Source of the DNA: Chloroflexota bacterium
Lineage (GTDB): Bacteria; Chloroflexota; Anaerolineae; Promineifilales; Promineifilaceae
Length of the DNA stretch: 48,934 nucleotides
Direction: 5' to 3'
Assembly (NCBI GenBank): GCA_003696605.1
Contig: RFGV01000040.1
Coordinates: forward strand, 1-48,934
Shown in pieces: positions 9,520 through 10,411 of the stretch (position 1 is the first letter of the stretch; each line of letters starts with the position of its first letter). The translations under genes were made by a program, and so were the position numbers. Under the pieces are notes generated by a model, which saw only the letters and a program-made list of their open reading frames with translations, had not been told where the DNA came from and did no database searches.

Positions 9520-9547
9520 TTGACACGAACCCCCAATTGAGTATACT
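9520..9547 (+). promoter_or_regulatory. Consensus sigma-70-type promoter
   Basis: A perfect -35 hexamer TTGACA (9520-9525) and a -10 hexamer TATACT (9542-9547) are separated by 16 bp. Transcription should start about seven bases further on, at or next to the ATG at 9554. It drives a very short RNA that ends at the hairpin at 9610-9636, or reads through into the SWIM gene at 9698. Confidence 0.8.
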
Positions 9548-9553
9548 AGAGAC

Positions 9554-9601
9554 ATGAGTGTGAAAAACTCACATAGTGAACATGCAGAAGCTGCTTTATA
9601 G
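9554..9601 (+). CDS. Possible leaderless 15-codon ORF (leader peptide candidate)
   Basis: ATG at 9554 opens a frame encoding MSVKNSHSEHAEAAL and stops at TAG (9599-9601). It begins exactly where transcription from the promoter at 9520-9547 should start, so it has no room for a ribosome-binding site and would be a leaderless message. Nine bases after the stop an intrinsic terminator begins, then the SWIM zinc-finger gene. That order (promoter, tiny ORF, terminator, gene) is the layout of a transcription-attenuation leader. The peptide has no run of one amino acid that would name a regulating tRNA; it contains two His and three Ala. It may instead be a non-coding RNA with a chance ORF. Confidence 0.35.
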   Translation: MSVKNSHSEHAEAAL

Positions 9602-9609
9602 AAATCTGG

Positions 9610-9636
9610 CGCACGCATTTATTTGCGTGCGTTTTT
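9610..9636 (+). terminator. Intrinsic terminator (possible attenuator)
   Basis: An 8-bp perfect stem, CGCACGCA (9610-9617) with TGCGTGCG (9624-9631), has a 6-base loop and runs directly into TTTTT. It lies between a strong promoter and the SWIM gene start at 9698. It therefore either ends a small RNA of about 80 nt or controls read-through into that gene. Confidence 0.8.
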
Positions 9637-9697
9637 GTTTATTTACCAGGTGCGCCGCTTATGCGGCCATTTAATTCCTTGCAGAGGAGAGTGTAAA

Positions 9698-9937
9698 ATG
9701 GATTATGGGATGATCAGCAAGATTGAAAAAGCCAAAATTTATGCTGAAGAGCGCGATCGCATCCAATTCGAATCTTTGCGGGTTCGAATTCAGGGTGATA
9801 ACACAGAAGCCCCACATCTTGTTAGCTATGACAATGGTAGTTGGAATTGTGATTGTTCTTTCTTTGCTTCACGTGGGGTTTGCAGCCATACAATGGCCAT
9901 GGAGCGTATTTTGGCTAATATGGTTGAGATTGGCTGA
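9698..9937 (+). CDS. Small SWIM zinc-finger protein
   Basis: A 79-residue protein. The ATG at 9698 is chosen because GAGGAGA stands just upstream; a longer reading from 9623 would run through the terminator tail and has no ribosome site. The C-terminal half carries CDC-x9-CSH, the CxCx(n)CxH zinc-binding signature of SWIM domains, which bind DNA or proteins. The N-terminal half is a charged helix rich in Lys, Glu and Arg. The protein is a bare SWIM module without the partner domains seen in larger family members such as Swi2/Snf2 or transposase relatives. Its role is unknown. It is followed by its own terminator, and expression may be controlled by the upstream hairpin. Confidence 0.75.
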   Translation: MDYGMISKIEKAKIYAEERDRIQFESLRVRIQGDNTEAPHLVSYDNGSWNCDCSFFASRGVCSHTMAMERILANMVEIG

Positions 9938-9958
9938 TTTCCTCTTGATATGAATTTG

Positions 9959-9989
9959 AAAAGCCTCTGGTTTGTCCAGGGGCTTTTTT
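9959..9989 (+). terminator. Intrinsic terminator after the SWIM gene
   Basis: AGCCTCTGG (9962-9970) pairs with CCAGGGGCT (9976-9984), with one G-U pair and a 5-base loop, followed by a run of T. It ends the SWIM transcript just before the next promoter. Confidence 0.85.
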
Positions 9990-10021
9990 GTTTGGGTGTG
10001 TGGGGAGCTGTTGGTGGTTTC

Positions 10022-10090: not shown

Positions 10091-10411
10091 ATGGAGTTGG
10101 TTAAAAAACTGGATGATTTTGTAGGAGTGCGAGAAGGGAAGTTTTATAAGGAGACGCTTTTTCGGAGTGAGCGATTGTTATTGGGGGTTAATTGTCTGGA
10201 GCCTGGGCAGGTGCAACTAGCTCATACGCATGATGGTCAGGATAAGTTTTATTTTGTGGTATCGGGCAACGGCCGTTTCCAGCTTGGTGATGAGTTTGTA
10301 ACGGCCGTTTCCGGTCAAGTCGTTTGGGCACCGGCTGGACTGGTACACGGGGTAGAAAACGTGGGAAACGGCCGTCTTACCCTCCTCATCGGTATTGCCC
10401 CAGCCCCATAA
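10091..10411 (+). CDS. Small single-domain cupin protein
   Basis: A 106-residue protein made almost entirely of one cupin_2 barrel. The first motif has HTHDGQDKFYFVVSG, where the two His and the following acidic/polar positions usually bind a divalent metal. The second motif is WAPAGLVHGVENVG, carrying the third His. The ATG at 10091 follows GGTGAGG and starts at the natural edge of the domain; a longer reading from 9950 would overlap the terminator of the previous gene. Such cupins may be sugar isomerases, dioxygenases or small-molecule binders, and substrate cannot be inferred here. Three ACGGCCGT copies lie within 110 bases, and composition flips from G/T-rich to C-rich after the last one. 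Confidence 0.8.
   Translation: MELVKKLDDFVGVREGKFYKETLFRSERLLLGVNCLEPGQVQLAHTHDGQDKFYFVVSGNGRFQLGDEFVTAVSGQVVWAPAGLVHGVENVGNGRLTLLIGIAPAP

Follow-up and report, generated by a model that had tools for sequence, protein, structure and literature searches.

A predicted leaderless mini-ORF ending at an intrinsic terminator: a proposed ribosome-operated attenuator of a SWIM zinc-finger gene in Chloroflexota

Why should a strong promoter be placed such that its transcript appears to begin with the start codon of a tiny reading frame, which ends directly in front of a terminator and a small zinc-finger gene? This question is raised by positions 9520-9697 of the window, i.e. the whole 48,934-nucleotide stretch of DNA analysed here, in which all features of the locus lie on the forward strand. 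The promoter (9520-9547) consists of TTGACA (9520-9525), a 16-bp spacer and TATACT (9542-9547), and transcription probably starts at the A at position 9554, the seventh base past the -10 box, which is preceded by a pyrimidine. The same A opens the ATG (9554-9556) of a 15-codon leader ORF (9554-9601; MSVKNSHSEHAEAAL) with TAG as stop codon (9599-9601), followed by an intrinsic terminator (9608-9641) composed of the stem-loop GGCGCACGCA-TTTATT-TGCGTGCGTT (9608-9633) and a T-run. A ribosome-binding region, GAGGAGAG (9682-9691), of which the purine-rich GAGAGGAG is retained in relatives, precedes the proposed controlled gene (9698-9937; ATG at 9698, stop codon at 9935-9937), which encodes a SWIM zinc-finger protein of 79 amino acids (Pfam PF04434, E 5.8e-4). 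A probable second terminator, AAAGCCTCTGGTTTGTCCAGGGGCTTTTTT (9952-9991), read off the sequence past the gene, suggests a single-gene unit. Further downstream lies a cupin gene (10091-10408), and similar sequence is apparently found 3' of the SWIM gene in several relatives. Promoter, ATG, 15 codons, terminator and SWIM gene had all been described in an earlier sequence-only reading and are indeed present, while two of its distances needed correction: the stop codon was said to end nine bases before the terminator, but lies 6 nt from the longest stem or 8 nt from its CGCACGC core, and the 61 bases given between terminator and SWIM gene become 64 nt when counted from the last base of the stem-loop to the SWIM ATG.

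Could such an arrangement be a product of chance? The promoter matches 11 of 12 consensus positions (with TATAAT as reference for the -10 box) and ranks first among six in 6 kb, but shuffled sequences yield about seven sites with at least 9 of 12 matches per 6 kb. Since promoter matches are thus common in shuffles, statistics on the single sequence are insufficient by themselves and the comparison among relatives decides. For this comparison we used the 45 readable SWIM loci with upstream DNA from the family of the window, which represent 20 genera (the SWIM gene was found in 47 of 52 family genomes). A near-perfect promoter is present in all 45, as exact TTGACA-N16-TATACT in 40 and as near variants in five, and each has an ATG located 6 nt (40 loci) or 7 nt (5 loci) 3' of the -10 box, with C or T at -1 and A at +1. 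A terminator hairpin with T-run precedes the SWIM gene in 45/45 loci as well, and the leader ORFs range from 10 to 34 codons. With promoter, ATG, stop position and terminator recurring in 45, 45, 37 and 45 of the 45 loci, respectively, the arrangement is far from chance. No second promoter beyond chance expectation was found between terminator and SWIM gene in the family loci, so that promoter, short ORF, terminator and a gene lacking its own promoter, the general anatomy of ribosome-mediated attenuators, are found together in 45/45. Two loci (L015, L049) have their leader terminator about 220 nt before the SWIM gene instead of 40-120 nt, with start and promoter geometry retained.

This geometry would fit a leaderless RNA with its 5' end at the leader AUG. 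Leaderless genes were detected in four of 12 Chloroflexi genomes, where they made up about 4.7% on average (PMC3160421). In the genome of the window, no more than 36 strong promoters belong to this class (3 in the control), and just three of them have an ATG at +6/7, two being copies of one repeat-like sequence. Apart from the SWIM locus and these two, the 36 promoters revealed no further copy of the whole unit. The repeat-like copies (L081, at G000:C305, and G000:C650) read TTGACA-N18-TATACT-ATGCCC/ATGTCC-ATG, and the ORF of L081, with 24 codons, stops ahead of a hairpin without T-run.

The feature that links the reading frame to the terminator is the position of the stop codon. In 37 of the 45 family loci, the first in-frame stop has its end in the interval from 14 nt before the terminator stem to 3 nt inside it; in the remaining eight it falls into the hairpin loop (four) or beyond the hairpin (four). 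Occlusion by a ribosome would demand a stop or ribosome site inside the hairpin or no more than about 27 nt away from it, and such a stop was found in the 37 loci plus the four with a stop in the loop. Dinucleotide shuffles of the stretch from ATG to stem predict a stop at the stem in merely 14.4 of 45 loci; as this null retains the base composition of the stretch and the stem itself, the A-rich flanks of terminators are already accounted for. When only one locus per genus is considered, the stop lies at the stem in 18 of 20 genera against 6.4 expected (P ~1e-9). In longer ORFs (29 codons in L044 and 34 codons in L045) it is still located at the stem, having shifted along with the hairpin, and across the family loci its identity varies between TAA, TGA and TAG at constant position. 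In L029, L047, L053 and L248, the leader ORF passes through the terminator without a stop, so that termination there would yield a nonstop mRNA.

Conservation of start and stop suggests that the leader ORF is translated. But is it the peptide that matters? Between loci of the same genus, substitutions are spread evenly over the three codon positions (59/63/65), and 22 synonymous stand against 89 nonsynonymous codon changes; these pairs are not mutually independent. No shared peptide motif and no run of a single residue was detected among the family leader ORFs, which includes the lack of a codon run of the trp/his/ilv type: the peptides are variable and not enriched for any one residue. Judged from these sequences, there is no amino-acid constraint on the leader peptide. 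It is accordingly highly improbable that the leader encodes a small functional peptide equipped with its own terminator, even though the conserved start, the length range and the stop near a terminator give it the look of a tiny gene and the leaderless 14-aa leader peptide peTrpL of Sinorhizobium has a function in trans (PMC7298713); the even substitution pattern and the lack of a motif common to the genera both contradict it.

A second possibility is that the RNA itself is the product. In this case, the terminated transcript of about 85 nt would be an independent small RNA and the SWIM gene just a neighbour or fed by leaky read-through. The very strong promoter and the good terminator do predict an abundant short RNA, and the sequence of the terminator stem is unusually conserved in the family. 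However, the leaders vary freely from ATG to hairpin and share no conserved seed, while the unit stays fixed before the SWIM gene, which disfavours a small RNA; moreover, stops keep to the hairpin in a single frame, the SWIM gene is preceded by promoter and terminator throughout the class, and Rfam covariance models gave no match at the gathering score and none at E values up to 1. We thus regard the small RNA as unlikely. Of the two options offered by the sequence-only reading, it is the attenuation leader with a leaderless peptide that the comparison supports.

Attenuators of the trp, his and ilv type depend on an antiterminator that is mutually exclusive with the terminator, and no such structure was found in the family loci: segments of the leader pair with either arm of the terminator no better than shuffles do (mean z 0.10 and -0.11). 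The two weak hairpins noticed earlier in the leader (9555-9571 and 9584-9594) fold as described, but their suggested role as alternatives to the terminator stem was not borne out, as they do not overlap the terminator and leader-to-arm pairing equals that of shuffles. The proposed comparison of the 15 codons with the stems turned out differently from either expectation: what is conserved is neither the peptide nor an alternative stem but the start codon, the placement of the stop relative to the terminator and the terminator itself. Over 20 genera, the first 36 nt of the leader ORF exceed shuffles in structure (mean z -1.3, below -1 in 12 genera) and tend towards a hairpin in many of them, and folding of the window's leader yields a weak hairpin within the ORF (9558-9574). 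By analogy with the trp leader, we suggest that this structure is possibly a pause hairpin for RNA polymerase.

The same parts list, i.e. promoter, short ORF, terminator and small regulatory-looking gene, could in principle be operated with the opposite sign in the style of trp/ilv or whiB7/wblC, such that efficient translation of the leader leads to termination and ribosomes slowed or stalled by amino-acid shortage or antibiotics allow read-through into the SWIM gene. Control of whiB7 by a uORF and attenuation of ilvB1 have been described in actinobacteria (PMC13236596), and the structured first 36 nt could then serve as a switching stem. Against this stand the lack of a regulatory codon run, of a conserved peptide and of conserved pairing with either terminator arm, and the stop is too close to the hairpin: a ribosome sitting there after finishing the leader would not free the terminator. 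The opposite sign is hence rather unlikely. With the stop 6 nt before the terminator, no antiterminator pairing and no second promoter, occlusion of the terminator by the ribosome is favoured.

We propose that the region 9520-9697 attenuates transcription of the SWIM gene and is operated by ribosomes, with translation of the leader causing read-through, a reading that appears on balance likely from the sequence comparison. The strong promoter would begin the RNA at the A of the ATG, and a ribosome would load straight on the 5' AUG in the family of the window, or via a Shine-Dalgarno site in other Chloroflexota. It would translate about 15 codons, the identity of which is irrelevant, and at or near the leader stop it would cover the 5' arm of the hairpin. 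A hairpin covered in this way could not close as RNA polymerase crosses the U-run, and transcription would proceed into the SWIM gene; if no ribosome trails closely, the terminator would form and the product would be limited to an RNA of about 85 nt. It is thus probably the passage of the ribosome, not the peptide, that decides whether the SWIM gene is transcribed. The assignment of read-through to translation draws on the analogy with E. coli, in which termination at the intrinsic terminator tR2 fell from about 90% to less than 10% when the stop codon was shifted from 28 bp to 5 bp ahead of it (PMC4824070, Li et al.), an effect that required translation and was gone beyond 27 nt (PMC4824070). 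Terminators lying no more than 100 bp into a coding region were efficient in the same study because the ribosome lags behind (PMC4824070). Since only about 54 nt separate start codon and hairpin, termination may likewise be the default state here, and read-through may depend on a polymerase that pauses or is slow. The signal would presumably be general translation or ribosome availability, possibly conditions favouring 70S initiation on leaderless RNA.

The principle behind this proposal is known from attenuators of the pyrBI/pyrE/ampC type. In the pyrBI and pyrE attenuators of E. coli, a ribosome close behind RNA polymerase blocks the hairpin of an intrinsic terminator without any antiterminator RNA, the upstream stop of pyrE being placed directly ahead of the terminator. 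In the growth-rate attenuator of E. coli ampC, a tiny start-stop ORF overlaps an intrinsic terminator, ribosome occupancy acts as antiterminator and ribosome supply is the signal; this attenuator is not known to extend across a phylum. The proposed SWIM attenuator would share with ampC the tiny ORF at an intrinsic terminator and antitermination by ribosome occupancy itself, but ampC has a minimal ORF led by a Shine-Dalgarno site and a beta-lactamase gene downstream. With pyrBI and pyrE it would share a trailing ribosome that prevents folding of the terminator in the absence of antiterminator RNA (pyrBI is also discussed in PMC4824070). These two, however, respond to UTP, which they sense by pausing of the polymerase at U-rich tracts, and have longer, Shine-Dalgarno-led ORFs, whereas the SWIM leader has about 15 codons, is probably leaderless in the family of the window and has no known link to pyrimidines. 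Leader ORFs that begin at the RNA 5' end, as predicted for the SWIM leader, are known from trpL of Sinorhizobium meliloti (PMC7298713) and from the polycysteine leaderless sORFs of mycobacteria (Canestrari 2020, cited in PMC13236596); these carry sensor codons for Trp and Cys, respectively, while we found neither sensor codons nor an alternative stem in the SWIM leader. The whiB7/wblC uORF attenuator of actinobacteria (cited in PMC13236596) would resemble the SWIM leader in that transcription into the gene for a small regulator of metal-binding type depends on how a short uORF is being translated, and differs in having the opposite proposed sign and another protein family. We found no description of a leaderless, codon-independent and widely conserved form before SWIM genes in the literature accessible to us, which lies outside most subscription journals.

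One property of the terminator exceeds what termination requires. Its stem core CGCACGC/GCGTGCG is retained in 38 of the 45 family loci and occurs only once in the genome of the window, a degree of conservation that, on the sequences compared, is beyond the terminator's need. The hairpin may additionally be bound by a protein, perhaps by the SWIM protein itself in an autoregulatory manner, with leader translation keeping it single-stranded. Stem sequences differ outside the family, though, even where the SWIM protein is conserved, and we consider such binding very unlikely.

Is the arrangement restricted to the family? In the class Anaerolineae, the promoter (with spacers of 17-18 bp), the terminator and the SWIM gene recur, and in 37 of 90 non-redundant class loci a Shine-Dalgarno match was recognised for an ATG. 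The stop of these ORFs is at or in the hairpin in 24 of 37 loci (11.2 expected, P 9e-6) compared to eight and six in the two shifted frames; the other 13 miss the hairpin. In L204, a Shine-Dalgarno site is followed by nine codons and a TAG abutting the stem, and L208, L173, L142, L182 and L157 are further examples of ORFs stopping at the hairpin. Under the rule applied, about 53 of 90 class leaders lack an ATG with recognised Shine-Dalgarno site; some of these start with GTG or TTG. Others may be devoid of any leader ORF, such as those of the sister family f2, in which promoter and terminator are kept without an ATG at the start. Outside the class, in some other Chloroflexota, stops lie at the hairpin in seven of 11 loci (3.4 expected, P 0.02) and in one and six in the shifted frames, a set of 11 loci that is weak alone. 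Clear cases are L239, L241, L244, L246 and L247, the last with AAGGAGG, 12 codons and a TAG abutting the hairpin. As judged from these sequences, the succession of promoter, terminator and SWIM gene occurs widely and often comes with a leader ORF that stops at the hairpin, while the family of the window has the version with a leaderless start.

The attenuator would not only be a simple natural switch for studies of transcription-translation coupling outside the usual model bacteria, but also provide a natural pair of leaderless and Shine-Dalgarno-led versions of one device. A regulatory ORF kept over many families although its peptide is not selected cleanly illustrates how selection can act on translation as such and on where it ends, and leader ORFs skipped by gene finders become recognisable from fixed end-points alone. 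It also gives a first lead on what the widely conserved, unstudied SWIM protein responds to, as it suggests a link of this protein to the translation state. The SWIM gene was matched in 247 of 298 genomes of the class and in 123 of 151 sampled Chloroflexota genomes, once per genome in the family. The protein has a C-x-C...C-x-H site with invariant C51, C53, C62 and H64 and a confidently predicted structure (pLDDT 91), for which sequence and fold searches of the PDB gave no significant match; its annotation is limited to the Pfam SWIM domain, with a weak NCBIfam match far below cut-off. For Chloroflexi or Dehalococcoides, the same body of literature yielded no paper on SWIM zinc fingers. A tentative, rather speculative extension is that a codon-independent ribosome sensor operates across the phylum: the near-universal Chloroflexota SWIM gene might be gated by whether a dummy ORF is traversed by a ribosome trailing the polymerase, and in one family this gate might have been rewired to leaderless 70S initiation and thereby be a natural reporter of leaderless translation, with the SWIM protein perhaps acting on transcription-translation coupling or translation stress.

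Within the SWIM match, an in-frame TAA was noticed in genus g35 (three genomes: G131, G173 and G191), and a tandem or fused second SWIM copy lies beside the first at L158 (G246) and at L067 and L200 (G057, G318), in families f21 and f46. Unrelated to the attenuator, the palindrome ACGGCCGT occurs at 83 sites in the whole window (e.g. 10269, 10301 and 10368) against 0.7 expected and a maximum of 3 in 100 shuffles; its sites are located within and between genes and resemble the cyanobacterial HIP1 octamer.
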